A stretch of DNA of 64,000 nucleotides, taken from positions 434,001 through 498,000 of the forward strand of contig NZ_JAFMPM010000006.1 in the NCBI RefSeq assembly GCF_017349355.1, read 5' to 3'. Origin of the DNA: Thiothrix fructosivorans (lineage in GTDB: Bacteria; Pseudomonadota; Gammaproteobacteria; Thiotrichales; Thiotrichaceae). A program made the position numbers and the translations under genes. Below, in pieces: positions 18,471-63,988 of this stretch (positions are counted from its first letter, which is position 1; the number at the start of each line of letters is the position of its first letter). A model generated the notes under the pieces. That model had not been told where the DNA came from. It saw nothing but the letters and a program-made list of their open reading frames with translations, and did no database searches.

Positions 18471-19789
18471 ATGACAGACTCACCGTTTATACGTTATCAA
18501 CAAGAGCCACAAGCCATGCGTACTCTGATTTTGGGGCTGTTTGCCCTGCATTTTATTTTTCTGGCGTACTTTAATAATGTGTATGTGGCGGGCTTGCCAG
18601 TGCGCTCGTTTTTGATTTTGTTGGCAGGTGGTTTGGTGGTCATGCGTGATTACAGCACGCTGTTCCGCATCGGGCTGGTGAGCAAGGTGTATTTGTTGCT
18701 GGGCATCGTGGGCTTGCTGGTGTCGCTAGCGAATAATGTGACACTCGGCAATATTGCGAATGGCGAGTTGAAGCTATTGCAATCGTATCTGATGGTATTG
18801 GTGGCGTTTTTTGTGGTGGAACAGTTTGGGTTTCGCACGCTGGGGTATTTGGTGGTGGGGATTGCCTTGCCATCGGCGCTGGTGGGGATTCTGCAAGGCT
18901 TGGATGTGCAGTTGGCGTGGAAGTTGCAAAGTGGCTTGCTGAGCATTCAAAACAAGGAACTCAGTGACGAAATCCGTTCACAGATGACCGAAGCCTTGTC
19001 ACGCCCACCCGGATTGAGTTTGTACGCAATTCCACAGACGTACATGCTGTTGGGCGCGTTAATGATCAATTTGTATTTGGTGCTGCAAAACCGTTACAAC
19101 CCGCGTTTTCAGATGGTGGCAGTTGGGGTGGGGGTGATTTTGATCGGGGGGATTTTTGCTTCTGAAACGCGTTCGGCGATGGGAGCGGCGTTGTTGATGC
19201 CTGCGTTGATTTACGTCATTCTGTTTCCTGCACGGGTGATTCCGGTGACGGGGTTATTGGTGCTGTTGGGGGCGGTGGCAGCGCTGGCGTTGGCGGATAA
19301 AGCGGGCATGGATTCGCGTTTGGTGAGTTTGGATGATGCGTCGGCGGTCGGGCGTGCCACGTTGTATAAATACGGCACGGAATTGTTTTGCAGCAGCCAT
19401 TCGGCTACGGTTTCAATTTTGATACGGTGGAATATGCGGTGGAATATTTCGTCAATGACAATAATCTGTTCCGCTACGAGCCGACTGAGAAGGCGCATTA
19501 CATTGTGCCAGTGCATAACTCGATCTTGAATCTGGTGCATACTTTTGGGTTTATCGGAGTGTTATTGCTGGTGTATTACGTGTATCGCTTGATTGGCAAT
19601 AGTTGGTATCGGGCAGTATTGATTGCGGGGGCGTTCGTGAATTCGATTTTTCATAACGCAGGCATTCTGAGCAACGACCTATTTATGGATATGGTGATTG
19701 CAGTGATGATGTATGAGTTGTATCGCCAGAATACAGCGGGTGTTACATTGACCCCGTGTTACACAAATTATACTGAGCAAAAAATTTAG
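18471..19789 (+). pseudogene. O-antigen ligase-like membrane protein, broken by a 1-base frameshift
   Basis: The first frame (18471 to about 19385) encodes about 305 residues with many membrane spans (LILGLFALHFIFLAYFNNVY onward) and FASETRSAMGAALLMPALI, typical of Wzy/O-antigen ligase-like proteins. The sequence then continues in the next frame from LQQPFGYGFNFDTVEYAVEY to the TAG at 19789. One missing T in the run 19386-19389 (TTTT, expected TTTTT) restores a single 440-residue protein ending with three more membrane spans. Either a true recent mutation or a base-call error. The neighbouring deacetylases support a role in exopolysaccharide assembly. Confidence 0.7.
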
Positions 19790-19805
19790 GTTGGTAAAAA
19801 GTTGG
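19789..19805 (-). promoter_or_regulatory. CCAAC-repeat operator, site A (ABC importer)
   Basis: On the minus strand it reads CCAACTTTTTACCAACC: two half-sites 11 bp apart. It lies 62 bp upstream of the substrate-binding-protein start. One of eight matches in the window, and the only one clearly reversed relative to its downstream gene. Confidence 0.6.
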
Positions 19806-19866
19806 TAGCATTCCCCCCCGCTTTGCGGTATCAAGAAGCCTTCATGTCATCGTGGAGGAGGACATT

Positions 19867-20874
19867 ATGTCGGGTTCATACCGTCGCTTGGTGGTGCGCT
19901 GTGTCGCTGTCTTGGGTTTGCTCGCAGGGCTGATTTCCCCCACATTTGCGCTGGAAAAAGTCCGCGTCGGCGTGCTGGAATTCGGCACGGTCAATTGGGA
20001 AATGGACGTGATCCAAACCCACAAACTCGCCGAACAACAAGGCATTGAGCTGGAAGTCGTGCCACTCGCCTCCGCCGATGCCTCCACCGTTGCCCTGCAA
20101 GGTGGTGCGGTCGACATGATCGTCTCCGACTGGGTGTGGGTCGCCCGCCAACGCGCTGCCGATTTCGATTACACCCTGTTCCCGTATTCCAACGCGGTCG
20201 GCGAATTGCTGGTCAAGGTCGACAGCCCCATCAAGACGCTGGCTGACCTCAAAGGCAAAAAGCTTGGTGTGGCAGGCGGTGCTTCCGACAAAAGCTGGCT
20301 GCTGTTACGCGCCTTTGCCCAGCAAACCCAGAAGTTGGATTTGCAGGCCGAAACCGAGCCGCAATACGCCGCACCCCCCTTGCTGAATGAGCTGATGCAA
20401 CGCGGCGATTTGGATGCCGTGCTCAACTTCTGGAACTACGCCGCCCGCCTCAAAGCTGCCGGAATGCGCAGCATCATCACCGTCCCCGATACGCTGGAAG
20501 GCTTAGGCATCCAACGCGACCTGCCACTGATCGGCTGGGTGTTCAGCGAAAAATGGGCGAAAGAACACGCCGCCACTGTCAATGGTTTCCTCAAAGCCTC
20601 GTATGCCGCCAAGCAAATCATGCAGGCTGACGATGCCGAATGGGTACGCCTACGCCCACGCATGAAAGCCGACGATGACGCGGTATTTACTGCCTTGCGT
20701 GACGGTTTCCGCGCAGGCATCCCCGCCTGTTTTGGCGACAAAGAAAAGCAAGCCGCTACTGACACCTTCCGTATTCTGGCGGAAATCGGCGGTGAAAAAC
20801 TGGTGGGCACTGCCAAAGTGCTCGACAAGGGCGTGTTCTGGCCTGACTTCAGCCTGCCTGCTTGCACGAAGTGA
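19867..20874 (+). CDS. ABC-transporter substrate-binding protein (NitT/TauT type)
   Basis: 335 residues from ATG 19867, chosen for the GGAGGAG upstream. A signal peptide ends near SPTFA (about 27), so it is periplasmic. The fold is that of SsuA/NMT1-like binding proteins (VRVGVLEFGTVNWEMDVI, GAVDMIVSDWVWVARQR, IKTLADLKGKKLGVAGG). Ligand unknown; aliphatic sulfonate, taurine or another small organic compound are possible. Its stop overlaps the permease start. The CCAAC-repeat operator upstream places it in the presumed PQQ/alcohol oxidation regulon, and proteins of this kind are often encoded beside PQQ-alcohol dehydrogenases. Confidence 0.8.
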   Translation: MSGSYRRLVVRCVAVLGLLAGLISPTFALEKVRVGVLEFGTVNWEMDVIQTHKLAEQQGIELEVVPLASADASTVALQGGAVDMIVSDWVWVARQRAADFDYTLFPYSNAVGELLVKVDSPIKTLADLKGKKLGVAGGASDKSWLLLRAFAQQTQKLDLQAETEPQYAAPPLLNELMQRGDLDAVLNFWNYAARLKAAGMRSIITVPDTLEGLGIQRDLPLIGWVFSEKWAKEHAATVNGFLKASYAAKQIMQADDAEWVRLRPRMKADDDAVFTALRDGFRAGIPACFGDKEKQAATDTFRILAEIGGEKLVGTAKVLDKGVFWPDFSLPACTK

Positions 20875-21617
20875 ATACCAACCACCGTTACGTGCGGGTG
20901 TTAGTGCTGGGCGGCTTTTTGCTGGCTTGGCAACTGCTCGCCGTGCTATTAGCCAGCCGTTCCCTGCCCAGTCCGCTGGCGGTTCTGGACACGCTCTGGC
21001 AACAGCTCGTTAACGGTGAATTACTGTTCCACCTCGGCGTCACCCTGTTGCGCGTCATGGTCAGTTTCACGCTGGCAATGCTGGTCGGCGTAGCCATCGG
21101 CATCCTCATGGGCAGCCGTAAAGCGTGGGACAACGTGCTGGATGTATTGCTGATTCTAGGGCTGAACATTCCCGCGCTCGTTACCATTATCCTCTGCTAC
21201 ATCTGGCTGGGTTTGGGCGAAACCGCCGCCGTCCTCGCCGTTGCTTTGAACAAAATCCCGATGGTGATCGTGACCTTGCGCGAAGGGGCGCGTGCCGTCG
21301 ACCACGATTTGTTGCAAGTGGCGCAAGTCTACCGCCTGACCCGCTGGCAAACCTTCCGCAGCGTCTACCTGCCACAACTTTACCCTTACTTGTTCGGCGC
21401 GGCACGCAATGGCTTGTCGCTGATCTGGAAAATCGTGCTGGTGGTGGAACTGCTAGGGCGCAGCAATGGCGTGGGTTTCCAGTTGGGTAATTACTTCCAC
21501 TTCTTCGACATCAAAGGCATTCTGGCGTACACACTGGCGTTTGCGCTGATCGTATTGGCGTTGGAAGCCCTGCTGTTGCGCCCGCTGGAACGGCATTTGA
21601 ATCGGTGGCGCTCATGA
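20871..21617 (+). CDS. ABC-transporter permease (NitT/TauT type)
   Basis: 248 residues, starting at GTG 20871, which overlaps the preceding stop (GTGA). Six membrane spans are visible. The EAA loop reads VDHDLLQVAQVYRLTRWQTF at about 140-160, followed by the permease helices FGAARNGLSLIWKIVLVVEL. Belongs to the BPD_transp_1 family with SsuC/TauC. Stop overlaps the ATPase start. Confidence 0.88.
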   Translation: MNTNHRYVRVLVLGGFLLAWQLLAVLLASRSLPSPLAVLDTLWQQLVNGELLFHLGVTLLRVMVSFTLAMLVGVAIGILMGSRKAWDNVLDVLLILGLNIPALVTIILCYIWLGLGETAAVLAVALNKIPMVIVTLREGARAVDHDLLQVAQVYRLTRWQTFRSVYLPQLYPYLFGAARNGLSLIWKIVLVVELLGRSNGVGFQLGNYFHFFDIKGILAYTLAFALIVLALEALLLRPLERHLNRWRS

Positions 21618-22384
21618 GTTTCCTCTCCGTCGATTTGCACAGCAAAACCTACCCTAACAGCGTATGCGCGGCGCAAGATTTACGTTTTGCCGCCAAACAG
21701 GGCGAATTCATCGCCATCGTCGGGCCGTCGGGGACAGGCAAAAGCACTCTGCTGAACCTGATTGCGGGACTGGATACTGACTTTGCCGGAACGATCAGCT
21801 ACCCGCCGCAAACCACCTTGAGTTTCATGTTCCAAGAACCGCGCTTGCTGCCTTGGCTGAGTGTCGCGGACAACATTCGGCTGGTGCTGGATGCGCCGCA
21901 ACACTGCCATGACAGCGCACGCTTGGCGCGAATGGATACGCTGTTGCAGCAGCTCGGCTTGCAAGATTTTCGCGACAGTTTCCCCAATCAATTATCGGGC
22001 GGGATGAAACGCCGTGCCGCCTTGGTTCGCGCCTTCGTCACCCAGCCGCAGCTATTGCTGATGGATGAACCGTTCCAGTCGCTGGACGAACCCACCGCGC
22101 AAGACCTGCGCCAAGTGCTGCTGAAGTTGTGGGCAGAAAGCCAGCCTACGGTGCTATTCGTCACCCACAGTTTGAACGAAGCTTTGTTGCTGGCGGATCG
22201 GGTGCTGTTCCTGTCGCCGCGTCCCGCCAAAGTGATTCTGGATTACCGTGTGCCGTTGCCACGTCCGCGCCCGCAAGCGACCAGCGGATTGCAATCCTTG
22301 CAGGCGGAACTGCTGCACGAATTCCCCGCGTTGCTCTCCGGTCTGCTTACACCGCCAACCTTTTCCCAACCCCATTCCCCCTAG
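21614..22384 (+). CDS. ABC-transporter ATPase (NitT/TauT type)
   Basis: 256 residues from ATG 21614 (ATGA overlap with the permease). Walker A GPSGTGKSTLL, signature LSGGMKRRAALVRAF, Walker B LLLMDEPFQSLDE and H-loop VTHSLNEALLLADRV are all intact. Completes an importer of the SsuABC/TauABC type. The regulatory CCAAC-repeat for the next gene lies inside its last codons. Confidence 0.9.
   Translation: MSFLSVDLHSKTYPNSVCAAQDLRFAAKQGEFIAIVGPSGTGKSTLLNLIAGLDTDFAGTISYPPQTTLSFMFQEPRLLPWLSVADNIRLVLDAPQHCHDSARLARMDTLLQQLGLQDFRDSFPNQLSGGMKRRAALVRAFVTQPQLLLMDEPFQSLDEPTAQDLRQVLLKLWAESQPTVLFVTHSLNEALLLADRVLFLSPRPAKVILDYRVPLPRPRPQATSGLQSLQAELLHEFPALLSGLLTPPTFSQPHSP
22355..22371 (+). promoter_or_regulatory. 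CCAACC-repeat operator, site B (cytochrome c)
   Basis: CCAACCTTTTCCCAACC, 58 bp before the cytochrome c start, the same distance as at pqqA. It lies within the 3-prime end of the ATPase gene. Confidence 0.65.
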
Positions 22385-22428
22385 ACTTGTGTGTATACCT
22401 TTCAGATTGGCGTTAGCGGAGATTGATA

Positions 22429-23097
22429 ATGAAGTATTTGAAAATCATGGCATTGGCAGCCTTAGTAGGCGTCAGCGGCGCAGCCCATGCCAACGGGCAA
22501 ATGCTGGAAACGGCTACCAAAAATGGCTGTTTCATTTGCCACTCGGTACAAGCCAAGACCGGCCCAGCTATTCCTCTCGCCCCCGCGTATGCGGATATTG
22601 CCGAGCGCTTCAAAGACCAAAAAGACGCCGCGAGCTATTTGTCACAGCGTATTCTGCAAGGCACGGTCAACACTAAGCAAGACTGGGAAGGCAAGGTCAA
22701 TATGCGCTTCATGCCCCCTAACGTGAGTGTGTCTGCCGAAGAAGCCACCAAACTGGCTGAATGGATTCTCAGCATTAAAAAAGATGCGATCAGCGAAGAA
22801 GTCATTACCCACGAAGGAATGCTGACACTGGCAGCGCAAAACGGCTGTATTGCCTGCCACGGTGTTTCCCAACAAACCGATAGCCATTACATCCCGCTCG
22901 CACCCGCTTTCCACGCGGTCGCAGAACGCTACAAAGGCAATGCCGATGCCAAAAAGACGTTGGTGGAATCCATTATCAGTGGCACGGTGGACAAGGAAAA
23001 GAAATGGCCAGACGTGAACATGCGTTTCATGCCGCCCAACCCTTCATTAAGCCCTAAAGATGCAGAGACATTAGTCGATTGGATTTTATCGCAGTAA
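22429..23097 (+). CDS. Periplasmic diheme cytochrome c
   Basis: 222 residues from ATG 22429 (GGAG upstream). A signal peptide ends at AAHA (about 21). Two tandem cytochrome c domains: heme sites C34-F-I-C37-H38 and C140-I-A-C143-H144, each followed by a NMRFMPPN segment that supplies the Met ligand (about 95 and 200), so the protein arose by internal duplication. It probably takes electrons from a periplasmic quinoprotein dehydrogenase. The operator upstream links it to the pqq genes. Confidence 0.9.
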   Translation: MKYLKIMALAALVGVSGAAHANGQMLETATKNGCFICHSVQAKTGPAIPLAPAYADIAERFKDQKDAASYLSQRILQGTVNTKQDWEGKVNMRFMPPNVSVSAEEATKLAEWILSIKKDAISEEVITHEGMLTLAAQNGCIACHGVSQQTDSHYIPLAPAFHAVAERYKGNADAKKTLVESIISGTVDKEKKWPDVNMRFMPPNPSLSPKDAETLVDWILSQ

Positions 23098-23130
23098 GCT
23101 GGACAGCCATATGCCAACGGGAGACTTACC

Positions 23131-23889
23131 ATGCTTGATCAGCCAGTGCTGACTGTCGTCGCCGTCAGCAAATCCTACGGCAAGCTATGTGCCGTCAATC
23201 AGGTCAGTTTCCAGCTTGGCAGCGGCTTTCACGCGCTGTTAGGACCCAATGGGGCGGGGAAATCCACGCTGTTCCAATTACTTACCGGACTATTTGCGCC
23301 GGATCAGGGTGATATTCATCTCAACGACATCAGCCTCCGCCAACACTTGCCGCAAGCCTTGGCGCAAATGGGCGTGGTCTTCCAGCAACCCGCGCTTGAT
23401 CTGGATTTGAGCGTGCAAGCCAATCTGGATTTTTACGGGCGTTTGCACGGCATGAGCAAAGCTGCCATCCGCGCTCGCAGCACGCAAGTGCTTACCCAAC
23501 TGGAAATAGCCGAAGTTGCCCCGACCCCCTGCCGCAATCTCAGCGGGGGCAATCGCCGCAAAGTGGAACTAGCACGCGCCCTGCTCACCGAACCCAAGCT
23601 GCTGTTGATGGATGAAGCCACCGTCGGGCTTGATCCCGCTTCTCGCGCCACCTTGCTGGCGTATGTACACCGCCTCTGCCGCGAACAAGGTTTAAGCGTG
23701 CTGTGGGCAACGCACTTGATCGACGAAGCCGAGCAAGCGGATCAAGTGCTGGTCATGCACAAAGGCAAATTGCTGGCACAAGCCCCCCCTGCTGCTTTGA
23801 TTAATCAAACCCAAACCGCCTCCTTGTTGGAAGCCTTCTTTCAATTATCTGGCGAAACGCGCGTAGAAACCCGCACCGCCCAGCTATGA
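23131..23889 (+). CDS. ABC-2-type ATP-binding protein, PQQ-alcohol-dehydrogenase-associated type
   Basis: 252 residues. Walker A GPNGAGKSTLF, signature NLSGGNRRKVELARAL, Walker B LLLMDEATVGLDPASR and the ATHLIDEAEQADQVLVMHKG motif are intact. It resembles ATPases that sit in PQQ-dependent alcohol dehydrogenase clusters, which normally pair with a permease. No ABC-2 permease is encoded here; the next gene is an aminopeptidase overlapping by 4 bp (ATGA). The partner permease must be elsewhere or lost. It follows the cytochrome c by 33 bp, probably one operon. Confidence 0.85.
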   Translation: MLDQPVLTVVAVSKSYGKLCAVNQVSFQLGSGFHALLGPNGAGKSTLFQLLTGLFAPDQGDIHLNDISLRQHLPQALAQMGVVFQQPALDLDLSVQANLDFYGRLHGMSKAAIRARSTQVLTQLEIAEVAPTPCRNLSGGNRRKVELARALLTEPKLLLMDEATVGLDPASRATLLAYVHRLCREQGLSVLWATHLIDEAEQADQVLVMHKGKLLAQAPPAALINQTQTASLLEAFFQLSGETRVETRTAQL

Positions 23890-24812
23890 ACCTGCCCGTT
23901 ACCCAAGGCCATGTGCTGCATTACGCCGAATTCGGCAATCCGGCGGGAATACCATTGCTGTTTGTGCATGGTGGCCCCGGTTCTGGCTGCAATCCCGCTC
24001 ACGCCATGCTATTGCACCCTAACGGTTTCCGCATTATCCAAGTCGACCAACGCGGTTGCGGGCAATCAACCCCCAAGGGCAGATTGTTAGGCAATCGTAC
24101 CGCTGCACTGGTGCGAGACATGGAAGCCTTGCGCCAACACCTCGGCATTCAACACTGGGCGATTTACGGCGGGTCGTGGGGCACAACACTGGCACTGGAA
24201 TACGCGAAACAGTACCCACAACGGGTGTTGGGCTTGCTGTTACGCGGGGTATTTTTGGCACGGTTGGAAGATTGGGAATGGTTCAGCTTACCTCATGGGG
24301 TAGCGCAGCAATTTCCGCTGGCCTACCAAACACTGTTAGACACCTTGTCGCCGCGCCAAGGAGAAAATCCTATCAACAGCCTGTATCGGCAATTGCTGAA
24401 TCCACGCACGCCCCTCGAAACGGCTTACCGTTACGCGCTCGCTTGGGATGCGTGGGAAGCAGCGGTGATGGGCTTGCCTGCCCCCGCCTTTGACCCTGAT
24501 GCCACACACTGGCAGGCACGGCTTCACCGCGCTCGTGTTTACAGCCATTACTGCGTCAACCACTTTTTTCTGCTGCCAACAGGCGTATTGCCGAACCTAA
24601 CAACGTTGCAACACCTCCCCATCAGCGTAGTACACGGCGTGAAAGATCAAGTCTGCCGCTTTGCCAGCGTCCACGCATTGACCAATGCCTTGCCGCAAAC
24701 GCAATTGTTCGCCGTCGAGGCAGGGCATGGAATGCACGAGCCTGCCCTACAGAATGCCGTGCAACACGCCGCCAGCACCTTACATGCCACGCTGATACGC
24801 ACCCAGCTCTGA
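23886..24812 (+). CDS. pip: Proline iminopeptidase (alpha/beta hydrolase)
   Basis: 308 residues. The alpha/beta-hydrolase oxyanion segment LLFVHGGPGSGCNP and nucleophile elbow GGSWGTTLALEYA (Ser about 105) are typical of proline iminopeptidases. It also has the DQRGCGQSTP motif and the catalytic His in EAGHGMHEPAL. Removes N-terminal proline from peptides in the cytoplasm. Overlaps the ATPase gene by 4 bp, so it is co-translated with the cytochrome c operon, although a functional link is not evident. Confidence 0.88.
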   Translation: MNLPVTQGHVLHYAEFGNPAGIPLLFVHGGPGSGCNPAHAMLLHPNGFRIIQVDQRGCGQSTPKGRLLGNRTAALVRDMEALRQHLGIQHWAIYGGSWGTTLALEYAKQYPQRVLGLLLRGVFLARLEDWEWFSLPHGVAQQFPLAYQTLLDTLSPRQGENPINSLYRQLLNPRTPLETAYRYALAWDAWEAAVMGLPAPAFDPDATHWQARLHRARVYSHYCVNHFFLLPTGVLPNLTTLQHLPISVVHGVKDQVCRFASVHALTNALPQTQLFAVEAGHGMHEPALQNAVQHAASTLHATLIRTQL

Positions 24813-24890
24813 CGCACCTCGGCGGATTTGTTTGCGCACCACCCGCAGCTAGCAGAAAATGCAGACTGGTCATTACGGAACGCTTTATTC

Positions 24891-46337: not shown

Positions 46338-46382
46338 CCAACTTTTTCCCAACCTTGTCATTTCCCCAACCTTTAGCCAACC
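46338..46382 (+). promoter_or_regulatory. CCAACC-repeat operators, sites C1 and C2 (aldehyde dehydrogenase)
   Basis: Two complete repeat pairs: CCAACTTTTTCCCAACC at 46338-46354 and CCAACCTTTAGCCAACC at 46366-46382, offset 28 bp. The second ends 86 bp before the aldehyde dehydrogenase start. Confidence 0.65.
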
Positions 46383-46467: not shown

Positions 46468-47988
46468 ATGCAATACGCCAACCCCAATACCGAAGGTGCT
46501 GTCCTTAACTTCAAAGAGCGCTACGAAAACTTCATCGGTGGGCAATGGGTTGCCCCCGTCAAAGGCGAATACTTCGACAATATTTCCCCAGTGAATGGCA
46601 AGCCATTCTGCCAAATTCCGCGTTCTAGCGCTGAAGACATTGAACTGGCGTTGGATGCTGCACACGCTGCCAAAGATGCGTGGGGCAGAACGTCTGTGAC
46701 TGCACGTTCCAATATCCTGCTGAAAATCGCGGATCGCATTGATGCGAATCTGGAAATTCTGGCCGTCGCGGAAACTTGGGACAATGGCAAAGCCGTGCGC
46801 GAAACCCTCAACGCTGACGTACCGCTTTCCTCCGACCATTTCCGTTATTTCGCAGGCTGCTTGCGTGCGCAAGAAGGCACAATGGGCGAAATCGACGAAA
46901 ACACCGTCGCGTATCATTTCCATGAGCCATTAGGTGTGGTTGGTCAGATCATTCCGTGGAACTTCCCACTGTTGATGGCGTGCTGGAAACTCGCTCCGGC
47001 ACTGGCAGCGGGCAATTGCGTGGTATTGAAACCTGCTGAACAAACCCCTGCCTCTATCCTGATCATGATGGAACTGATTGCGGATTTGTTGCCAGCAGGC
47101 GTATTGAACGTGGTTAACGGCTTCGGCGTGGAAGCAGGCAAAGCCTTGGCAACCAGCACCCGTATCGCCAAAATCGCCTTCACTGGCTCGACACCTGTTG
47201 GCTCGCTGATTATGAAATATGCAGCAGAAAATATTATTCCATCCACCGTCGAACTGGGCGGCAAATCCCCGAACATCTTCTTCGCTGACGTGATGGATCA
47301 AGAAGATGCATTCGTGAGCAAATGCGTAGAAGGCGCGGTACTGGCATTCTTCAACCAAGGCGAAGTGTGCACTTGCCCATCACGCTTGCTGATCCAAGAA
47401 TCCATCTACGAAAAGTTCATCGGCATGGTGATCGAGCGTGCAGCGCAAATCAAACGCGGCAACCCGCTGGATACCGAAGTCATGGTCGGTGCACAAGCTT
47501 CCCAAGAGCAGTACGACAAGATTCTGGAATACATCCAGATCGGTAAAGACGAAGGTGCTGAAGTGATTACCGGTGGTAATTCAGAACAACTCGGCGGCGA
47601 TTACTGCGATGGTTACTACATCCAGCCGACCCTGCTGAAAGGCACCAACAATATGCGCGTGTTCCAAGAAGAAATCTTTGGGCCAGTCGTATCCGTTGCC
47701 ACCTTCAAAGACGAAGCCGAAGCGCTGGCGATTGCCAATGACACCGAATTCGGTCTGGGTGCGGGTGTGTGGACGCGTGACATGAACCGTTCTTACCGCA
47801 TGGGGCGTGGCATTCAAGCTGGTCGTGTGTGGACAAACTGCTACCACCTCTACCCAGCTCACGCGGCGTTCGGTGGCTACAAAAAATCTGGCGTAGGCCG
47901 CGAAACCCACAAAATGATGCTGGATCATTACCAACAAACCAAAAATCTGCTGGTGAGCTACGACATCAACCCGTTGGGCTTCTTCTAA
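46468..47988 (+). CDS. Aldehyde dehydrogenase (NAD(P), acetaldehyde-type)
   Basis: 506 residues. ALDH superfamily signatures: [31 protein letters not shown] (general-base Glu about 266), catalytic Cys in [11 protein letters not shown] (about 302), and [12 protein letters not shown]. Closest in kind to ExaC/AcoD acetaldehyde dehydrogenases that act after PQQ ethanol dehydrogenase. Two CCAACC-repeat operators and the PQQ neighbourhood support a role in oxidising aldehyde formed from alcohol. A terminator follows. Confidence 0.93.
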
Positions 47989-55744: not shown

Positions 55745-55750
55745 CATTAT

Positions 55751-56201: not shown

Positions 56202-56301
56202 GTTTATTTAATTTGAGGTTTTATTAACATTTTGAGAGTTGGATTGGTTAGAATGCGAGGTCATCCTGAGCGCTTCTTCACTTTATTAACGGTGTTTTAT
56301 C

Positions 56302-56385: not shown

Positions 56386-58025
56386 GTAACTGAACAGTCC
56401 CCCCTTACCCAAACGCACTAAATTTGCGACACTCCCCCGATGACCCAACAACTGAAAGACCACAGCCTCAAACAGCTTAACAGCCAGTACCTTGCCAAGC
56501 TCACGCCGGAGGAACTGCTGCACCTGTCGACCAAGTTGTTGCATGACCTGAAAGAAGCGCGGGAACAGATCAACCAAAACTCCAACAACTCCTCCAAACC
56601 ACCCAGCAGCGGTTTCCCGTGGGAAACGTCACCCAAAACGGTGGCTTTGCCCGAAACAGAAGGGGTGGGTGCAGCCAGAGGAAAGCCAACCCCGGAACCA
56701 GAAGCTGTGGCGGGCACAAAGCCAGCCCAACCAGCCAAACGCAAAGCGGGTAAACAACCCGGCGCACCGGGTTATGGTCGGGTATGGCATCCGCCCATCA
56801 ATGCAGACGAACACCATTACCCCAGCCGATGTGAAGCCTGTGGCAGGTCCCTGGATGCGGCTGTCTCCCGTATTTATACCGCCTATGACAGTGTGGACAT
56901 CCAGTTTGGCACGGATGGGAACCCCGGACTGACCGTCATCACCACCCGCCACCACCTTCACGATAGCGTATGCACCTGCGGTCATGTGAGCCGCCATATC
57001 CCGCATCGCCAAGCTCCCGACCCGTTATACCCGGAGGTTGATGTGGGCGAGTGGCGGCTGATTGGGGGCAATCTGGCGGCACTTATTGTCCACCTACGGC
57101 TGCGCTCACGCTTGTCACTGCGTGGCACACAAGAACTGTTGCGGGAGGTGTTGGGCATTCCCCTAAGTGTCGGGGTGTTGCAGCAATGTTTTGAGGAAGC
57201 AGCCGCGAGTGCTTCTCCATTGGAAGATGCCTTGGTGGAAGGGCTGTTGGCAGAAGCCACCGCTGACGGCGGGGTGCTGTATATTGATGAAACCTCTTGG
57301 AAAGAGCGTGGCGAAGCCCTGTGGCTATGGACATTCGTCACCACCCTCAGCGTTTGTTTCTACGTAGGGCAGCGCACCATTGAAATGCTCGACAACGTGA
57401 TTAGCCCCCACTTTGGGGGCTGGCTGATGAGTGATGGCTATGCCGCTTACCGCCACCACCCCAAACGCTTGCGTTGCTGGGCGCACCTGATCCGCAAAGC
57501 CCGTGGGCTGGCAGAATCACTGGACAAAGACGGGCGGACGTTTGGCAACTTCACCCTCGCTTGGCTGAGGGTATTACAGGACGACATTTACGCTTGGCGG
57601 GCAGCAGGCGGCACGGTGGGGACGCAAACCGACGTGATCCGTCAACGCCATCAGGCAAAACTCCTGGAATTCAGGGCATTATGCTTGATCCATGCCGTAT
57701 CTGCCCATGACAAGACGGCGGCACTGGCGAAAGAGTTCATCAATGATTGGGATGCCATTTTCCGAATCCTTGACCACCCGTGGCTTCCCTTGACCAATAA
57801 TGAGGCTGAGCGGGCGTTGCGCCATTGGGTGATCCTGCGCAAAACCAACCATGGCACAAAGAGTGCTACGGGGAGCCGTGCGTTTGCCATGCTGGCCAGC
57901 ATCATCGGTACTTGCCGCAAACGTGGACAGTCTGCCTTGGCTTATCTTGCCAGTGTTATTACCGCTGCCCGCGCTGGCTTTGCCCTGCCCGCTTTACCGC
58001 AAGGGGTGGGGATGTGATCAATTAC
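56386..58025 (+). mobile_element. IS66-family insertion sequence, copy 2 (1640 bp)
   Basis: Same element as 14532-16171, in opposite orientation. Ends GTAACTGAACAG at the left and ...GATCAATTAC at the right. Target duplication GTGGGTTT at 56378-56385 and 58026-58033. Inserted in an MFS gene. Confidence 0.92.
56440..58017 (+). CDS. IS66-family transposase
   Basis: 525 residues, translation identical to the copy at 14540-16117; DDE residues in VLYIDETSW, WLMSDGYAAY and NNEAERALR. The identity of both copies indicates recent transposition within this genome. Confidence 0.92.
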   Translation: MTQQLKDHSLKQLNSQYLAKLTPEELLHLSTKLLHDLKEAREQINQNSNNSSKPPSSGFPWETSPKTVALPETEGVGAARGKPTPEPEAVAGTKPAQPAKRKAGKQPGAPGYGRVWHPPINADEHHYPSRCEACGRSLDAAVSRIYTAYDSVDIQFGTDGNPGLTVITTRHHLHDSVCTCGHVSRHIPHRQAPDPLYPEVDVGEWRLIGGNLAALIVHLRLRSRLSLRGTQELLREVLGIPLSVGVLQQCFEEAAASASPLEDALVEGLLAEATADGGVLYIDETSWKERGEALWLWTFVTTLSVCFYVGQRTIEMLDNVISPHFGGWLMSDGYAAYRHHPKRLRCWAHLIRKARGLAESLDKDGRTFGNFTLAWLRVLQDDIYAWRAAGGTVGTQTDVIRQRHQAKLLEFRALCLIHAVSAHDKTAALAKEFINDWDAIFRILDHPWLPLTNNEAERALRHWVILRKTNHGTKSATGSRAFAMLASIIGTCRKRGQSALAYLASVITAARAGFALPALPQGVGM

Positions 58026-58033
58026 GTGGGTTT

Positions 58034-58350
58034 CACATTGCGTTTCTGGTGACGCATTTACCCGGTGAAGTTAATTTATGTGGTTTACCGCCTGCTGTTG
58101 CCAGTTGGTCGCTTGCCATTATTGGGCTGGCCAATGTATTTGGCAGTTTGTATGCAGGCTCATGTGTTACCCGTTACCGCAGCAAGTAACCGTGCTATCG
58201 CATCAGCTCGGTGGCTTTTTAGGGGCTTACCTCGGCGGCTGGTCGATCAGCCACTTCGGTGATTTTACGTGGATGTGGTATGCGGATATGGGCTTAGCAG
58301 CCGTTCCTTTAAACTTATGCAAACTTAACCAAGGTCAAGTTTGCGGTTAA
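58034..58350 (+). pseudogene. MFS transporter remnant, right of the IS66 copy
   Basis: After the target duplication the frame reads HIAFLVTHLPGEVNLCG and continues to GSLYAGSCVTRYRSK then TAA. A later frame resumes with LSHQLGGFLGAYLGGWSISH and WYADMGLAAVPLNL, the C-terminal helices of the same family. About 60 residues between the two parts are deleted. The remnant runs up to the tnpB element. Confidence 0.65.
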
Positions 58351-58480
58351 ATTCCTGCTTCATTGGGGCTGGTTTCGTCTTCGGCTTGCGCCAAGACCAG
58401 AGCCTTCCCCTCCACAGGCCGACACCGTGGAACTCACGGCGTGGTTGCTGAGCGTAGCCGAAGCATACTCTTGCAAATTC
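58350..58480 (-). ncRNA. Possible omega RNA scaffold of tnpB
   Basis: TnpB guide RNAs span the 3-prime end of tnpB and the right end of the element. The minus strand just past the coding end reads TGAAGCAGGAATTTAA, a form typical of TnpB right ends, after which the guide segment would start (about 58330-58349). Extent is a guess. Confidence 0.3.
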
Positions 58481-59556
58481 TTGGCAGCGTTTACGTCACG
58501 GTCATGGACTGCGCCGCAAACGGGGCAAATCCATTCACGTACCGACAGCAGCAGTTTGTCCACTTTATGCCCACAACCGGAGGCAGAACAGGTTTTGCTA
58601 GAGGCAAAAAACCGATCAGCCACGACCACCACGCTGCCCCGTATTCCCGCTTTGTATTCCAGTTGCCGCCGAAACTCGAAAAAGCCCATATCACTGATGG
58701 CACGGGATAAATGGCGGTTTTTCACCATGCCCGACACGTTCAAATCTTCAATGCCGATGGTATGGAAACGGCGGGTCAAATCCGTGGTGAGTTGGTGCAA
58801 ACTGTCTTGGCGGATATTGGCTATCTTGGCGTGAAGCCTTGCCAGCTTCTGTTTCGCCTTGTGGCGGTTGGCACTGCCTTTGACCTTGCGCGACAGGCTG
58901 CGGGATAGCCGTTTTAGGCGTGAAAGCAAGGCTTTATGCGGCTTTGCTCCTGTAACTTTTTCCCCCGTTGATAACGTTGCCAGTGCGGATACGCCCAAAT
59001 CCACCCCCACTGTGCCTTGGTTTTCAGCAGGCGGGAGGTGGTTTTGATCCGTATCCACGGTAATGCTGGCGAACCACTGGTCAGCGGTGCGGGAAATGGT
59101 GGCGGAGAGGATTTTACCGGAAAAGCGTAACGTTTCCCGCATCCGCACTAACCCAAGGTTGGGAATGCGGATGCGGGAAGCATCAAGCGAAAATTGATCG
59201 TTGGTGAGGCTGAAACTGTCACGGCTCTTGCCTTTCTTTTTGAACTGCGGGTACTGGGCACGTCCGGCAAAAAAGTTGTTGAACGCTTGCCCCAGTTGGA
59301 TAATCGCCATTTGTGGAGCGTTTTTGGTGACTTCGAGCATCCACGGGAATTGTTCACGCTTGATGGCGTTCAATTGGCGGCGCAAGCTCATTTGATTGGG
59401 TTTGGGCTGGGTGTTGTCGTCTTTCCACGCGGCGTATTGGGTTTGCCATTCCGCCAACCCCCAGTTGTAAGCAAACCGAGCTGTACCTGCGGCTTTCGCC
59501 AAGTACGTGGCTTGTTTATTGTTGGGGTCTAGGCGGATTTTGTGGCTGATAATCAT
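58360..59556 (-). CDS. tnpB: TnpB-like RNA-guided endonuclease (IS200/IS605 group)
   Basis: 398 residues. Wedge/REC part (AYNWGLAEWQTQYAAWKDDN, LGQAFNNFFAGRAQYPQFKK), then RuvC with Asp in VGVDLGVSALATLSTG, Glu in TIGIEDLNVSGMVKN and Asp in HDRDVNAAKNLQEY. A zinc finger lies between (SGCGHK..CPVCG). All catalytic acids are present. No tnpA transposase is next to it, so it is a stand-alone tnpB (IS1341-like). The C-terminal tail (GGEGSGLGASRRRNQPQ) is the part normally overlapped by the omega RNA. Confidence 0.9.
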   Translation of the reverse strand: MIISHKIRLDPNNKQATYLAKAAGTARFAYNWGLAEWQTQYAAWKDDNTQPKPNQMSLRRQLNAIKREQFPWMLEVTKNAPQMAIIQLGQAFNNFFAGRAQYPQFKKKGKSRDSFSLTNDQFSLDASRIRIPNLGLVRMRETLRFSGKILSATISRTADQWFASITVDTDQNHLPPAENQGTVGVDLGVSALATLSTGEKVTGAKPHKALLSRLKRLSRSLSRKVKGSANRHKAKQKLARLHAKIANIRQDSLHQLTTDLTRRFHTIGIEDLNVSGMVKNRHLSRAISDMGFFEFRRQLEYKAGIRGSVVVVADRFFASSKTCSASGCGHKVDKLLLSVREWICPVCGAVHDRDVNAAKNLQEYASATLSNHAVSSTVSACGGEGSGLGASRRRNQPQ

Positions 59557-59647
59557 GAGGGATAGGATGCAATACAGCAGGTTTTGTGTCTAGGGGTGGG
59601 TGTTTTTGATGTTGCTATCGACAGATGAACGGTAGTCTGTGCCTTAC

Positions 59648-59680
59648 AACTTCTCCAAAATGACAAAGATTGGAGAAGTT
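59648..59680. repeat. 11-bp inverted repeat between tnpB and the GAF regulator
   Basis: AACTTCTCCAA (59648-59658) and TTGGAGAAGTT (59670-59680), perfect, 11-nt loop. It lies just past the end of the regulator gene (minus strand), so it may stabilise or end its transcript, but there is no T run. Confidence 0.4.
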
Positions 59681-59765
59681 TGGGTGGGTTTTGTGGTAGC
59701 TGCTTCAAACCCTTGCCGTGCTGATCAATTTGCCGATTCGGGAAGCGCCTATCAGCAAACCAACC

Positions 59766-60950
59766 TTAAATCCGCCGTGGTGGGCGGGAAACTAATTCTT
59801 CTAAGCGCTCACGCACCAACTCACTGCCGGAGGTGCTGTGGCAAAGTTTTTCCATCAATACGCTAGGGTCTTGGCAAGAATCCAGTGCTTTGCCCATGAC
59901 GGCATCAATGCAATGCCGCCATTCTTCCAGCTCTGGCGATGCGGATTGCGGCAAGAACGAACCACGGTACAGCGAAAACGCTTCCTGACTTTGCTGCTGA
60001 CGCAAGGCTTGCCAAACGTGGATAAAGTCCGCCCACACTGGAATCTGCAAACGATACGGACGTGAACCAATCTGCCCATCCAACAAACGGCGCAAATGCG
60101 ATAATTCTGCTTTTAGTGTTGTGGTCGACACGCGTGCATCGCCATACAGCGCTGCGTGGAAGCCTTCTAGGGTCAGCCCTTGCGGATTCAGTGCCAATAA
60201 GCAAAGGATTTCCACCTGTCGCATCGGCAAATTCATTGGCTTGCCACGAAACAAGATGCGCGGTTGCCCCAGCGCGTGGATTTCGAGTTCGGCACGCGGC
60301 AAATTTTGCGGCAAGCACCGCCCAATCGAACGCGCTAATTCCGTGACTGCCGCTTGCCCAAGCGGGGTATGGCGATTCCACGTCGTGGACATATCCAGAA
60401 TACCCACGATTTCACCCGATTGCGGGTGCATGATCGGCGCGGCATAACACACCCAATCGTGTACAAACGGCAAATAATGTTCGCAGGAAAATACGGTCAC
60501 GGAACGTTTGAGTTTCATGCACAAACCGACGGCATTCGTGCCAACCGAATGCTCATCCCACAAACCACCGGCGGTAAAATTGACGGATTCGGCACGCGGA
60601 CGCATGTGACTGCTGGAAAATGTCCACAGCAAGCGTCCGGTTGGGTCAGCAATGGCAGCGACGAGTTCGCCTTCCTTCGCCAATTGCATCATTTGCTCTT
60701 GTTCGCGCTGAGCCGCTTGGCGCAACAAGGATTCCTGCCAGCGGTGCGCAGCGCTGTATTCATCTTCCGCTGGCGCATGAACTTGACGAGGTTTAATACA
60801 TTGAGCACTACGCTGCCACGATGACATGATGTCTTCACGTATCTCGGCACCTTGTAACGACGCACTACCGGCAAGAAGCCGACTCCACTGCGTTTCGATG
60901 GTGCGTCTCCGTTGCGACAAATTGCCCGTCGCTAGACTTACTGACTCCAT
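59766..60950 (-). CDS. GAF-domain regulator with SARP-like winged helix
   Basis: 394 residues. N-terminal AcoR-like region (about 30-210) with a GAF domain containing GGLWDEHSVGTNAVGLCM and EHYLPFVHDWVCYAAPI, like the sensor half of sigma-54 activators. There is no AAA+ domain. Instead residues 222-300 form a winged helix (LEIHALGQPRILFRGKPMNL, AELSHLRRLLDGQIGSRPYR) of SARP/OmpR type and a helical C-terminal domain follows. SARP-type proteins bind direct repeats with 11-bp period, and its own promoter region holds such a repeat (60998-61014). It is the best candidate regulator of the CCAACC-repeat regulon. Confidence 0.75.
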   Translation of the reverse strand: MESVSLATGNLSQRRRTIETQWSRLLAGSASLQGAEIREDIMSSWQRSAQCIKPRQVHAPAEDEYSAAHRWQESLLRQAAQREQEQMMQLAKEGELVAAIADPTGRLLWTFSSSHMRPRAESVNFTAGGLWDEHSVGTNAVGLCMKLKRSVTVFSCEHYLPFVHDWVCYAAPIMHPQSGEIVGILDMSTTWNRHTPLGQAAVTELARSIGRCLPQNLPRAELEIHALGQPRILFRGKPMNLPMRQVEILCLLALNPQGLTLEGFHAALYGDARVSTTTLKAELSHLRRLLDGQIGSRPYRLQIPVWADFIHVWQALRQQQSQEAFSLYRGSFLPQSASPELEEWRHCIDAVMGKALDSCQDPSVLMEKLCHSTSGSELVRERLEELVSRPPRRI

Positions 60951-60997
60951 ACGCCTCCTCCTGCGCTAAGCACTTAAGCAGATAGGGAAAGAGCCTC

Positions 60998-61014
60998 CCA
61001 ACCTTTTCCCAACC
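60998..61014 (+). promoter_or_regulatory. CCAACC-repeat operator, site D (GAF regulator)
   Basis: CCAACCTTTTCCCAACC, 48 bp upstream of the divergent GAF regulator start, suggesting autoregulation. The 421-bp gap 60951-61372 also holds site E. Between them I see AT-rich DNA and short unsupported frames only. Confidence 0.6.
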
Positions 61015-61284
61015 TTTACGCTGTTAATATTGGCAAGTAGCTGATGTTAACAGACGACTGGAGACAAGATTACCACGCAATATTGAATATGAAAAGGGCA
61101 TTATCAATAAATATATCAAGCGAAAAACCAAAGCAATCGCTGCTGATTATTTTTTACAAAACTTATTTTCACCTGACAATGAAAAAATATAACTAATTGA
61201 TAAAATTGGTAATATTGTTTATTTCCATTTATTTTCATTAGTGAAAAAAATTAAGCTCAATCTGCTAATTTTTTTGTGCAACAC

Positions 61285-61301
61285 CCAACCTTTTTCCAAC
61301 C
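61285..61301 (+). promoter_or_regulatory. CCAACC-repeat operator, site E (porin)
   Basis: CCAACCTTTTTCCAACC, 72 bp before the porin ATG. Confidence 0.65.
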
Positions 61302-61372
61302 CCAACAGTTTTACGCTCAGCCTCGCCGATAAAAGGTTTATTTAAACGACCGACTATTAAGGAGAGGAGATC

Positions 61373-62590
61373 ATGCATAAAAATTTAATCGTTCTAGCGG
61401 TGTCTGCCGCACTGGTATCCAACGTTCTGCCCACCGCCCAAGCTGCTTCGTGGAAAGCGGGTGACTGGGATCTAGGCTTAGGCGGCAACGTCAACACCTA
61501 TTACACCGTGACCACTTGTGATGCGGACAAGCTGGGTACAGGCGGTGGCACGATGGCGGGCTTAGCCTGTTTAGATTCTGATACAGGTACATTTGCAGAT
61601 GCCAATACGCACAGCGTTTCTAATGGCTTGCTGCCCGCATCCCTGAACTTCAGCGCTAAAACCAAGCAAGAAGGCTACGACTTGAGCGGTAATGTGAACG
61701 TCTATTACGGCGTTGCCAGTTCCCAAGGTGGTGCTAACGGAGATGCACTGGACTTTTCCAGCGTCGATGCACGGCAGGTCTACATGACCGTTGGCAATGA
61801 AAAGATGGGTACGGTGAAAGCAGGGCGTGACTTCGGTCTGTTCGGTTTCGATGCGGTCATCGGCGATATGTCATTGCAAGGCACAGGTGCGAGTTTTGCT
61901 TCCGCAGGCCCTGGGCATACCACGCTGGGTGGCTTGGGCTACGGCTACGTGTACACCGACCGCTTGGCGCAAATCAACTGGACTTCCCCGAAGAAAAACG
62001 GCGTGGAAGCCACGCTTGGGGTATTCAACCCGCTGGATGGTCAAGAATCCAATGGCAAATCCACGGGTGACGGCGGACAACCGGGCTTGCACGGCAAAAT
62101 CAGCTACGACGTGGACAATGGCAATGGAGTCAAAACCCACTTATCTGCCAGCGCCCTGAACCAGAAAGTCAAACTCTCCAACGGTCAGAAGCCTAGCATC
62201 CAAGGCACGGATGTCTTTGCACGCGTAGACATCAACAAAGCCAGCCTTGCGGGCGGCTACTTCCAAGGCGAAGGCATGGATACGCTGGGCATTGGCGGTA
62301 TCGTGTTCCCCGGCTTCAGCAGCACTACGGGTGAAGCGGAAAAAGCCAAAGGTTACATGGCTCAAGCATCTTACAAGCTCAACAAAACCAAGCTGGGCGT
62401 GAACTACGCGCAAAGCAAGCAAACCAACCTCACCAAAGTCAAAAACGACAAGGTAACACTGGGCGCTTACCACAGCTTGACCGATAACCTCACGCTAGTT
62501 GGGGAAGTATCGCAACAGAAAAGTGAGCTGGACGGCAAAGGTACGGATAAATCCGGCACGGTCGCCGTGGGCGCAATGTTCTCCTTCTAA
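61373..62590 (+). CDS. Gram-negative porin
   Basis: 405 residues from ATG 61373 (AAGGAGAGGAGA upstream). Signal peptide ends at PTAQA (about 24). The mature protein has the alternating-strand pattern of general porins, motif VDARQVYMTVGNEKMGTVKA and a C-terminal Phe (VGAMFSF), which is the outer-membrane assembly signal. Gly/Asn-rich loops. The CCAACC operator and position beside pqqA suggest entry of an alcohol or other substrate into the periplasm. Confidence 0.85.
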   Translation: MHKNLIVLAVSAALVSNVLPTAQAASWKAGDWDLGLGGNVNTYYTVTTCDADKLGTGGGTMAGLACLDSDTGTFADANTHSVSNGLLPASLNFSAKTKQEGYDLSGNVNVYYGVASSQGGANGDALDFSSVDARQVYMTVGNEKMGTVKAGRDFGLFGFDAVIGDMSLQGTGASFASAGPGHTTLGGLGYGYVYTDRLAQINWTSPKKNGVEATLGVFNPLDGQESNGKSTGDGGQPGLHGKISYDVDNGNGVKTHLSASALNQKVKLSNGQKPSIQGTDVFARVDINKASLAGGYFQGEGMDTLGIGGIVFPGFSSTTGEAEKAKGYMAQASYKLNKTKLGVNYAQSKQTNLTKVKNDKVTLGAYHSLTDNLTLVGEVSQQKSELDGKGTDKSGTVAVGAMFSF

Positions 62591-62607
62591 CCAACCTTTC
62601 GCCAACC
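62591..62607 (+). promoter_or_regulatory. CCAACC-repeat operator, site F (pqqA)
   Basis: CCAACCTTTCGCCAACC, starting directly after the porin stop and ending 58 bp before pqqA, the same distance as at the cytochrome c gene. Confidence 0.65.
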
Positions 62608-62664
62608 TCATCACGGGCATACTGTAACCTCACCTTAAACCCTTAATCGAGAAGGAGATAGCTT

Positions 62665-62751
62665 ATGAAAAAGTCACTGAAATGGACTAAGCCAGCATTC
62701 AACGAAATGCGCTACGGTTTCGAGATTAACCTGTACATCATGAACCGTTAA
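62665..62751 (+). CDS. pqqA: PQQ precursor peptide PqqA
   Basis: 28 residues: [20 protein letters not shown] then INLYIMNR. The conserved Glu and Tyr (E20-x3-Y24) that PqqE links to make PQQ are present. AAGGAGAT ribosome site. It is followed 2 bp later by pqqB. Too short for usual gene finders. Confidence 0.93.
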
Positions 62752-62753
62752 TC

Positions 62754-63671
62754 TTGTTTACCTTGGTACTCGGTTCTGCGGCGGGGGGTGGATTTCCCCA
62801 GTGGAACTGTAATTGCCCAATGTGTACCGGGGAGCGGACGGGTGACATTGTTGCCCGTTCGCGCACCCAGTCCTCGATTGCGGTTTCCACCGACAAAGTG
62901 AACTGGTTGCTGGTGAATGCCTCGCCAGACATCCGTACCCAACTCAACGCTAATCACGCATTGCTGCAACCTGCTCGCCACTTACGCGATACAGGCATTG
63001 TGGCGGTGATGCTGGCTGATAGCCAAATTGACCATACCACGGGCTTGCTGATTTTGCGTGAAAGCAAGCAGCCACTGGAATTGTATTGCACCGATAGCGT
63101 CTACGAAGACCTGACCACAGGCTTCCCGATTTTGAACATGCTGGAACATTATTGCGGGGTGAATCGCCACGCGCTGCCGCTGGATGGCGCTGCGTTCAGC
63201 ATTCCCGGTTTGGATAATTTACGCATCACCCCCGTAGGCTTGCACAGCAAAGCGCCGCCGTATTCCCCGCATCGCCATAACCCCGGTATCGGCGATAACG
63301 TTGGCTTCTGGTTTGAAGACACTGCCACAGGCGGCAAGCTGTTTTATGCGCCCGGTTTGGGTGAAATCGAAGCGCACTTGCAACCGTTCTTTGCCAACGC
63401 CGATTGCGTGCTGGTGGATGGGACGTGTTGGACAGATGACGAAATGTTACGCCGTAAAGTCGGCACGAAACCCGCGCTGGACATGGGACACCTGTCGCAA
63501 TCGGGTGAAGGCGGCATGATGGAATGGCTGGCAAACTTCCCCGACACCCGCAAGATTCTGATTCACATCAACAACACCAACCCGATTCTGGAAGAGACTT
63601 CGCCCGAACGTGCTGAACTGGCTGCTGCGGGGATTGAGGTTTCATTTGATGGGATGTTGTTGGCGTTGTAG
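62754..63671 (+). CDS. pqqB: PQQ biosynthesis protein PqqB
   Basis: 305 residues. Metallo-beta-lactamase-fold protein with start [36 protein letters not shown], the [11 protein letters not shown] segment and [11 protein letters not shown]. Hydroxylates a cross-linked PqqA-derived intermediate. The start is a TTG 2 bp after the pqqA stop with no clear ribosome site, so its translation is likely coupled to pqqA. pqqC-E are not adjacent in the visible 329 bp downstream. Confidence 0.92.
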
Positions 63672-63698
63672 GAGCATGAGTTTGCTGGTTGCATTTAC

Positions 63699-63923
63699 CG
63701 CCTCACTCCGAACTTCCCCCCATCCCCAGCCCTTCCCCCGCAAGGGGTGAAGGGAGCTAAGATTTTCAAGTGCTACGGTTCTGGAATCACGAAATCTTGA
63801 ACCATCAAGCAGTCGCCATACAACAAATTCGCCAAGCTCTACACGAGCAGTCGCAGCACCTCTTGCCCCCTTCACCCCTTGCGGGGGAAGGGCTGGGGAT
63901 GGGGGGAAGTTCGGAGTGAGGCG
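63699..63923. repeat. 59-bp inverted repeat with GC-rich palindromic core
   Basis: Arms 63699-63757 and 63865-63923 are reverse complements with one mismatch, separated by 107 bp of unique DNA without a gene. The arms share a 39-bp core with the insertion in fmt (36283-36321). It looks like a short non-autonomous (MITE or REP-doublet) element. No other gene is seen between pqqB and the window end. Confidence 0.8.
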
Positions 63924-63971
63924 ATGAAGATAACCACCAAACTTGTATAAATACTCATGACCTAATCCCAA

Positions 63972-63988
63972 CCAACCTTTCTCCAACC
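63972..63988 (+). promoter_or_regulatory. CCAACC-repeat operator, site G (gene beyond the window)
   Basis: CCAACCTTTCTCCAACC, 12 bp from the window end. It predicts that the next rightward gene belongs to the same regulon, possibly a PQQ dehydrogenase or further pqq gene. Confidence 0.6.

Follow-up and report, generated by a model that had tools for sequence, protein, structure and literature searches.

A conserved CCAACC repeat as the putative operator of a PQQ-dependent alcohol oxidation regulon in Thiothrix fructosivorans, with a GAF/winged-helix protein as candidate regulator

The 64,000-nucleotide stretch of the Thiothrix fructosivorans genome analysed here (the window) carries genes for pyrroloquinoline quinone (PQQ) synthesis, the acetaldehyde dehydrogenase gene exaC, genes for a cytochrome c, a porin and an ATP-binding cassette (ABC) importer, and a gene for a GAF/winged-helix protein. 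Next to these genes lie copies of the motif CCAAC(C/T)-N5-CCAACC, in which two CCAACC half-sites form a direct repeat with an 11-bp period. We examined the motif as a putative operator and the GAF/winged-helix protein as its candidate regulator. Eight exact copies were found in the window, compared to 0.04 expected and a maximum of 1 in 100 dinucleotide shuffles; all of them lay where the initial annotation had placed them, and there was no ninth exact copy elsewhere in the window (Table 1). Reversed-motif controls were biased, because the motif comes close to mirror symmetry and genuine sites are therefore matched in the reversed reading too; the controls relied on were shuffles, and genomes or promoters without the regulator.

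The whole genome (4,355,037 bases) contains 13 exact copies, 11 of which carry TTT behind the first half-site and fit CCAACYTTTNNCCAACC: the eight in the window and those at C6:678087, C6:700265 and C6:708126. The two exact copies without TTT are located at C6:1767403 and C8:1417018. Allowing one mismatch added three sites, of which C8:1256092 (within a coding region) and C3:833 were taken as chance; the third, C8:743722, is described below. With 11 of the 13 exact copies adjoining the pathway, the motif is not randomly scattered. Outside the window, sites stand before the gene of a TIGR03075 PQQ alcohol dehydrogenase, grouped with genes for a PedF cytochrome c550, a SoxYZ-like carrier, a metallohydrolase and a CXXCW protein; before genes for a TIGR03866 beta-propeller and a TIGR03863 binding protein; and, at C6:678087, before the gene of the TIGR03861 PedC permease, inverted relative to pedC. 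Sites had been predicted genome-wide before PQQ dehydrogenase, pqqC(D)E and ABC-2-type permease genes, and the scan recovered them all. The PQQ ABC system has its genes for the ATPase, the permease and the binding protein dispersed across about 250 kb, and each unit has a site. The initial annotation also held that every copy precedes a gene of one pathway. All 11 CCAACYTTTNNCCAACC sites adjoin pathway genes or their conserved neighbours; for the NMT1-type importer and the porin, it is conserved clustering that points to a role in the PQQ pathway.

Table 1. Putative operators and genes in the window
Feature	Position	Strand	Basis or remark
Putative operator CCAACTTTTTACCAACC	19789..19805	-	Exact match; inverted relative to the NMT1/SsuA-type ABC importer operon (ATG 19867)
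ABC importer operon: NMT1-type binding protein, permease, ATPase	19852..22384	+	Homologues in relatives' PQQ clusters
Putative operator CCAACCTTTTCCCAACC before the cytochrome c gene	22355..22371	+	Exact match; TAGACT 10 bp downstream
Cytochrome c and TIGR03864 PQQ_ABC_ATP subunit	22423..23889	+	Profile matches
Upstream putative operator CCAACTTTTTCCCAACC of exaC	46338..46354	+	Exact match; without TANNNT at 9-10 bp
Proximal putative operator CCAACCTTTAGCCAACC of exaC	46366..46382	+	Exact match; TATGTT 9 bp downstream
exaC, acetaldehyde dehydrogenase	46468..47988	+	NF050026, 967 bits, over cut-off
Candidate regulator, GAF and C-terminal winged helix	59766..60950	-	Pfam, AlphaFold model, Foldseek
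Putative operator CCAACCTTTTCCCAACC, 47 bases from the regulator gene (inverted) and 358 bases from the porin gene (direct)	60998..61014	+	Exact match; same place in relatives
Putative operator CCAACCTTTTTCCAACC before the porin gene	61285..61301	+	Exact match; TACGCT 10 bp downstream
Porin_4 family porin	61373..62590	+	Pfam
Putative operator CCAACCTTTCGCCAACC before pqqA	62591..62607	+	Exact match; CATACT 10 bp downstream
pqqA-like 28-residue peptide	62665..62751	+	Named by position before pqqB
pqqB	62754..63671	+	TIGR02108
Putative operator CCAACCTTTCTCCAACC before pqqC	63972..63988	+	Exact match; CATACT 10 bp downstream

Between site and start codon there are 61 bases at the NMT1-type binding protein gene, 57 at the cytochrome c gene, 85 and 113 at exaC, 47 at the regulator gene, 71 at the porin gene (358 from its upstream site), 57 at pqqA and 47 at pqqC. 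Distances of 48-86, and of 58 at both cytochrome c and pqqA, had been given at first; these are right when the A of ATG is included in the count and the nearer of the two exaC sites is used. Similarly, the positions given for the sites were right, but those at 19789 and 60998 are inverted relative to the importer and regulator genes that they precede. The open reading frame (ORF) of the NMT1-type binding protein opens at GTG 19852, and an ATG with a ribosome site follows at 19867. The cytochrome c gene (ATG 22429) matched Pfam Cytochrom_C in two stretches, and the ATPase matched TIGR03864 ('PQQ-dependent alcohol dehydrogenase system') with 299.1 bits, just below the cut-off of 302.25. The peptide named pqqA owes its name partly to a presumed resemblance. 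pqqC starts at window-equivalent position 64036, beyond the window end, and is followed by pqqE. The PQQ alcohol dehydrogenase outside the window (L017:7383-9137, equal to C6:700382-702136) is closest to 6zcv/6zcw and has WDFDG in common with them, whereas ExaA (1flg) has WDFSG; we take the extra Asp to be a signature of lanthanide-dependent enzymes such as PedH.

To describe the promoters, 99 distinct exact sites were collected, of which 77 were assigned as direct and used for the -10 count. The 22 dropped sites comprised 7 beside Thiothrix regulator genes, 4 at NMT1 and 5 at pedC genes, and 6 unassigned; one dropped pedC site also lies 89 bases from a beta-propeller gene, and one unassigned site (window 63972) is identical to L015:3973, which was kept. 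A TANNNT hexamer was found 9-10 bp after the site in 59 of the 77 direct sites, compared to a mean of 4.2 and a maximum of 14 in 1000 shuffles in which 8-10 bp was allowed. By group, it was present at exaC in 27/32, PQQ dehydrogenase in 12/12, beta-propeller in 7/7, cytochrome c in 5/5 and pqqA in 5/8. In the T. fructosivorans genome, eight of the nine direct sites checked have (T/C)ANNNT at 9-10 bp (the ninth is the upstream exaC site), and the best -35 match at those eight has only 1-3 of the 6 consensus bases, so that these promoters look activator-dependent; pqqA also offers a second hexamer, at 12 bp, whose -35 matches 4 of 6 bases.

Three of the 11 sites in this genome (19789, 60998 and 678087) are inverted. 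Because inverted orientations at these genes recur in relatives, there appear to be two operator geometries, direct and inverted. At promoters of NMT1-type importers, the inverted site was accompanied by TATCAA 23-24 bases downstream in all four shown; at pedC promoters, TATCAA followed the inverted site in six of the eight shown, one more had TATCTA and one had neither. Over both groups, TATCAA lies 22-24 bases behind the site. In two relatives (G003 and G009), the beta-propeller and pedC genes diverge from a single site, which is direct relative to the former and inverted relative to the latter. At exaC, tandem double sites occur in T. fructosivorans and in G006.

The AlphaFold model of the candidate regulator (mean pLDDT 85, pTM 0.63) consists of a GAF-like half (residues 35-211), a C-terminal OmpR/SARP-type winged helix (220-302) and short helices up to residue 388. 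Employing Foldseek, we matched the GAF half to DhaR(N) (4lrx, E 2e-10) and the C-terminus to EmbR (4.8e-6) and to the AfsR SARP in promoter complexes (5.7e-6 and 1.3e-5), the matches being 8hvr, 8k60 and 2ff4. Trans_reg_C gave weak matches (E<=1, best 6.1e-7) in the C-terminal parts of all 46 family members, the T. fructosivorans protein scoring E 0.011 and 16.2 bits, under the Pfam cut-off of 26.2. NF008485 (DhaR) matched all 23 of 23 members; the protein's own match was partial, at 67 bits, below the cut-off. No BTAD was among the Pfam matches listed for the 46 members, and the regulator showed no Pfam match to AAA+ or to a Fis-type helix-turn-helix, the model having a winged helix instead, and no match to a receiver domain, its N-terminus being GAF-like. 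The protein fits the motif because SARP-type winged helices bind direct repeats with an 11-bp period, which is the layout of the motif. It had been named as the candidate from the start and was the sole survivor of two regulators profiled phylogenetically; the GAF/winged-helix protein is most likely the reader of the motif. A literature search, with subscription papers outside its reach, found no published account of either the regulator or the motif.

In eight of 16 genomes of the genus, a PQQ alcohol dehydrogenase scored above the cut-off of its family. These eight contain 11, 6, 7, 3, 10, 8, 7 and 11 exact sites, which lie within 9-41 kb in six of them; the eight negative genomes contain 2, 2, 0, 1, 1, 1, 0 and 1. 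Six of the latter eight sites are located before exaC, one beside the regulator gene, and one (G001:173858) has no pathway gene nearby. exaC is thus the most widely conserved target, outlasting the PQQ pathway, because PQQ-negative relatives keep the site mainly before exaC. A close orthologue of the regulator (at least 77% identity) is present in exactly the 14 genomes with the exact motif; of the two genomes without the motif, G008 has no homologue and G014 has a 48% paralogue and a partial 58% match. In two genomes (G007, L074:1253; G010, L071:10795), a site lies just before, or in an open frame upstream of, a Pyr_redox_2 (pyridine-nucleotide disulfide oxidoreductase) domain, and this gene is a possible extra member of the regulon. 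The relatives' clusters (20 loci, longest-ORF calls) were subjected to crude ORF clustering, which left seven unlabelled families present in at least three genomes. One member each of six of these families and four ORFs near sites were scanned with Pfam, in clusters not exhaustively annotated, and no transcription factor was found; the six were SelO, PqqD, an alpha/beta hydrolase, AAA_14/DUF4143, TfoX_N and L068:5832-6623 (no Pfam match), and the seventh family (L068:2020-2763 type) was left out.

Among 63 genomes of the order, a homologue (E<=1e-15) was found in 21, and the exact motif occurred in 18 of these 21 and in one of the 42 without a homologue (G049, a single site in a genome 69% complete). 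When only the 46 genomes with a completeness of at least 90% and a contamination of at most 5% were considered, the counts were 18/21 and 0/25. With an identity threshold of 59%, chosen afterwards, they became 18/18 and 1/45 (Fisher 7e-15, a value that ignores kinship among genomes). In a sample of 369 Gammaproteobacteria, the exact motif was found in eight genomes, three of which have the regulator (G000, G060 and G206 of that sample). Of 41 genomes in the sample with exaC (E<=1e-200), the motif was present in 3/7 with the regulator (E<=1e-60) and in 0/34 without it (Fisher 0.003).

We further compared exaC promoters. Of 60 loci obtained from a scan of named genomes, 34 had an exaC start with enough upstream DNA, and a forward site with 0-3 mismatches was present in all 34 of these regulator-bearing loci (0 mismatches in 21, 1 in 4, 2 in 4 and 3 in 5). 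In exaC promoters from regulator-less genomes (26 of the 34 in the class sample), the best match had 6-7 mismatches in 26/26. Exact exaC sites include those of Thiomicrorhabdus, Thiohalocapsa, Granulosicoccus and a Competibacteraceae genome, and also those of nine actinobacterial loci, whose regulator is only 38-40% identical. At a locus of Flexivirga endophytica (L161), a single site with one mismatch lies just 3' of the regulator gene. In three exaC promoters (L130, L136 and L207), whose regulators are 67-72% identical, the best forward site is CCTACC-N5-CCTACC, with both half-sites altered alike, possibly in co-variation with the regulator.

A sister locus was found at the one-mismatch site C8:743722, which is flanked by two paralogues of the DNA-binding part of the regulator, both without GAF. 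Altered sites, CCAACCTTTNNNNAACC (e.g. CCAACCTTTGTTAAACC), occur in five genomes (G000 and G011-G014) as an outward-facing pair 35 bp apart, at L013:1466-1517 (C8:743687-743738 of T. fructosivorans) and also at L101, L105, L106, L107 and L158. G010 (L115) has a single altered site, and 5 of the 17 sister loci scanned have none. Such non-canonical matches number three in 385,162 bases of the relatives' PQQ cluster loci; in the whole T. fructosivorans genome, a looser CCAACCTTTNNNNAACC pattern matched only the eight canonical sites that it covers and the sister pair. All five genomes have a paralogue whose recognition helix, TI(K/R)xxLTxLR, is altered compared to the T(L/V)KxExSxLR of most of the family, and the paralogue ORFs in G012-G014 are intact. 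We dropped the idea of a clean co-variation of helix and site at this locus. G000 and G011, at least, also have a sister-locus paralogue with the main-type helix, a point against our interpretation, and because of it the altered site and the altered helix are not surely paired. Short of a helix-to-site pairing, the locus supports a link between this DNA-binding family and CCAACC-type repeats, and it would represent a second regulatory system beside paralogues of the DNA-binding part, some without GAF.

We consider it very probable that CCAACYTTTNNCCAACC serves as the operator of a single regulon, which covers PQQ-dependent alcohol oxidation in the periplasm and removal of acetaldehyde, and that the operator is most likely read by the 59766-60950 protein; the regulon and its candidate regulator are well supported. 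Two winged-helix domains would bind next to each other, one on each half-site, 11 bp or one helical turn apart. At direct sites, the bound regulator would replace the missing -35 element, 9-10 bp upstream of the -10, and recruit RNA polymerase as SARP/PhoB-type activators do; at the inverted sites before the NMT1-type importer and pedC, it may activate from farther upstream, 22-24 bases from TATCAA. The signal sensed by the GAF domain is presumably related to an alcohol or aldehyde, and autoregulation is suggested by the site next to the regulator gene. The ancestral unit was probably exaC with the regulator and the site, to which Thiothrix would have added pqqABCDE, the genes for the PQQ dehydrogenase and cytochromes, and those for the porin and transporters; in short, an exaC switch seems to have been taken over for PQQ alcohol oxidation. 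On balance we also favour, with less assurance, a fuller history: an ancient one-component acetaldehyde/alcohol switch (GAF and SARP-like winged helix) with a nearly unchanged 17-bp exaC operator across Gammaproteobacteria and Actinobacteria, capture of the whole PQQ programme in Thiothrix, two operator geometries, and a sister system with altered operators that arose via duplication.

Several points weigh against this interpretation. The motif, gene content, conservation, co-occurrence and predicted fold were computed, whereas operator binding, activation, signal and history are inferred. The -10 elements were assigned by sequence matching, with no starts mapped, and orthologous promoters do not count as independent cases; porin (2/4) and pqqC (1/9) promoters fit TANNNT poorly, eight of the latter showing CATACT instead, and no conserved -10 was seen for the inverted site of the regulator's own gene. 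The G001 site at 173858 lies within a long ORF. The exact motif is lacking in G014, G043 and G044, genomes of the order whose homologues are more distant, as it is in four of the seven regulator-bearing exaC genomes of the class sample, which have 1-2 mismatches before exaC. Conversely, five genomes of that sample without the regulator (G086, G112, G200, G294 and G410) have one exact site each, with neither exaC nor the regulator gene within 1.5 kb on either side; this is about what chance allows. Two of the three-mismatch exaC promoters (L130 and L136) match better in reverse, with 2 mismatches, and the homologue loci examined in Nocardioides and Streptacidiphilus have no site with up to 2 mismatches.

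Among other explanations, the 59766-60950 protein might bind the site as a repressor that occludes RNA polymerase until a GAF ligand relieves it. A repressor would be compatible with the overlap of the site and the -35 region, with the inverted sites and with the site next to the regulator gene, but the weak -35 elements at eight of nine direct sites with a -10-like hexamer in place, and a 9-10 bp phase kept in 59/77 sites, argue for activation, and the geometry equals that described for SARP activators in the AfsR study (PMC10936776); we regard repression as unlikely. That fixed distance to the -10-like hexamer would also be expected if the motif were a promoter element of an alternative sigma factor. 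Recurrent inverted sites with another -10 distance, the tandem double sites at exaC here and in G006, and the co-occurrence of the motif with the GAF/winged-helix gene make this very improbable. Slighter still is the case for a BaeR-like OmpR-family response regulator (L017:15183-15917) as the reader: it adjoins the 708126 site, and its OmpR-type winged helix could bind 11-bp direct repeats, but orthologues (at least 72%) are present in only 6/16 genomes of the genus, being absent from four PQQ-positive ones (G003, G006, G007 and G009, each of which has 6-10 sites) but found in the PQQ-negative G011 and G014, and this phylogenetic profile led us to reject it. A dispersed repeat or chance pattern without any regulatory role hardly deserves credence. 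Loose matches with up to 2 mismatches are indeed common in the window (33 vs 12.4 expected, the eight exact copies among them), but 11 of 13 exact genome copies adjoin one pathway and the same site recurs at orthologous promoters across genera and phyla.

The proposed regulator combines features of known systems. In the pho box, 11-bp direct repeats bound by PhoB replace the -35 element about 10 bp from the -10; the putative operators here likewise place 11-bp direct repeats at -35, but the candidate has a GAF-like half in place of the receiver domain of OmpR/PhoB response regulators. DhaR/AcoR regulators carry AAA+ and a Fis-type helix-turn-helix; the N-terminal receptor half of the candidate resembles DhaR, and a winged helix stands in place of both. 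The SARP-like design is best known from antibiotic control in Streptomyces. Like the SARPs (AfsR, EmbR), the candidate has an OmpR-type winged helix followed by helices, but its DNA-binding part is C-terminal, behind a GAF domain, rather than N-terminal, no Pfam match to BTAD was seen, the helices behind the winged helix are short, the family occurs in Gamma- and Zetaproteobacteria as well as Actinobacteria, and it is linked to alcohol/acetaldehyde oxidation, not antibiotics. New here would be the joining of SARP-like DNA reading to a GAF sensor, with a new operator and target pathway. The gene set (PQQ dehydrogenase, c-type cytochrome and PedC-type ABC system) is similar to that of Pseudomonas ped/exa. 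SARP boxes, in the AfsR study, are direct repeats 11 or 22 bp apart, the last one 8 bp from the -10, with the box overlapping the -35 (PMC10936776); 11-bp-period repeats likewise stand by the -10 here, 9-10 bp from the last CCAACC, or 8-9 bp when 7 bp are assigned to the repeat (starts not mapped). Unlike the one-component GAF/winged-helix protein, the regulators in Pseudomonas are of the LuxR type, with AgmR as a LuxR-type activator and PedS2/PedR2 as a two-component system, according to PMC12997753; in a word search of its main text, GAF, OmpR and direct repeat did not occur.

Apparently, a one-component regulator with a SARP-like DNA-binding part runs PQQ alcohol oxidation in sulfur bacteria. 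The operator is conserved strongly enough to allow sequence-based prediction of the regulator and its targets across phyla, and at the sister locus, the altered sites offer a test case for how such proteins read DNA.

Two further features of the window were noted. A gene for a TnpB-family RNA-guided endonuclease (IS200/IS605-like; 58360-59556) directly adjoins the regulator gene. Between pqqB and the pqqC site, at 63679-63943, there is an inverted repeat with 79-nt arms, 91% complementary and 107 nt apart, which suggests that a small mobile element, similar to a miniature inverted-repeat transposable element (MITE), has inserted into the pqq region.

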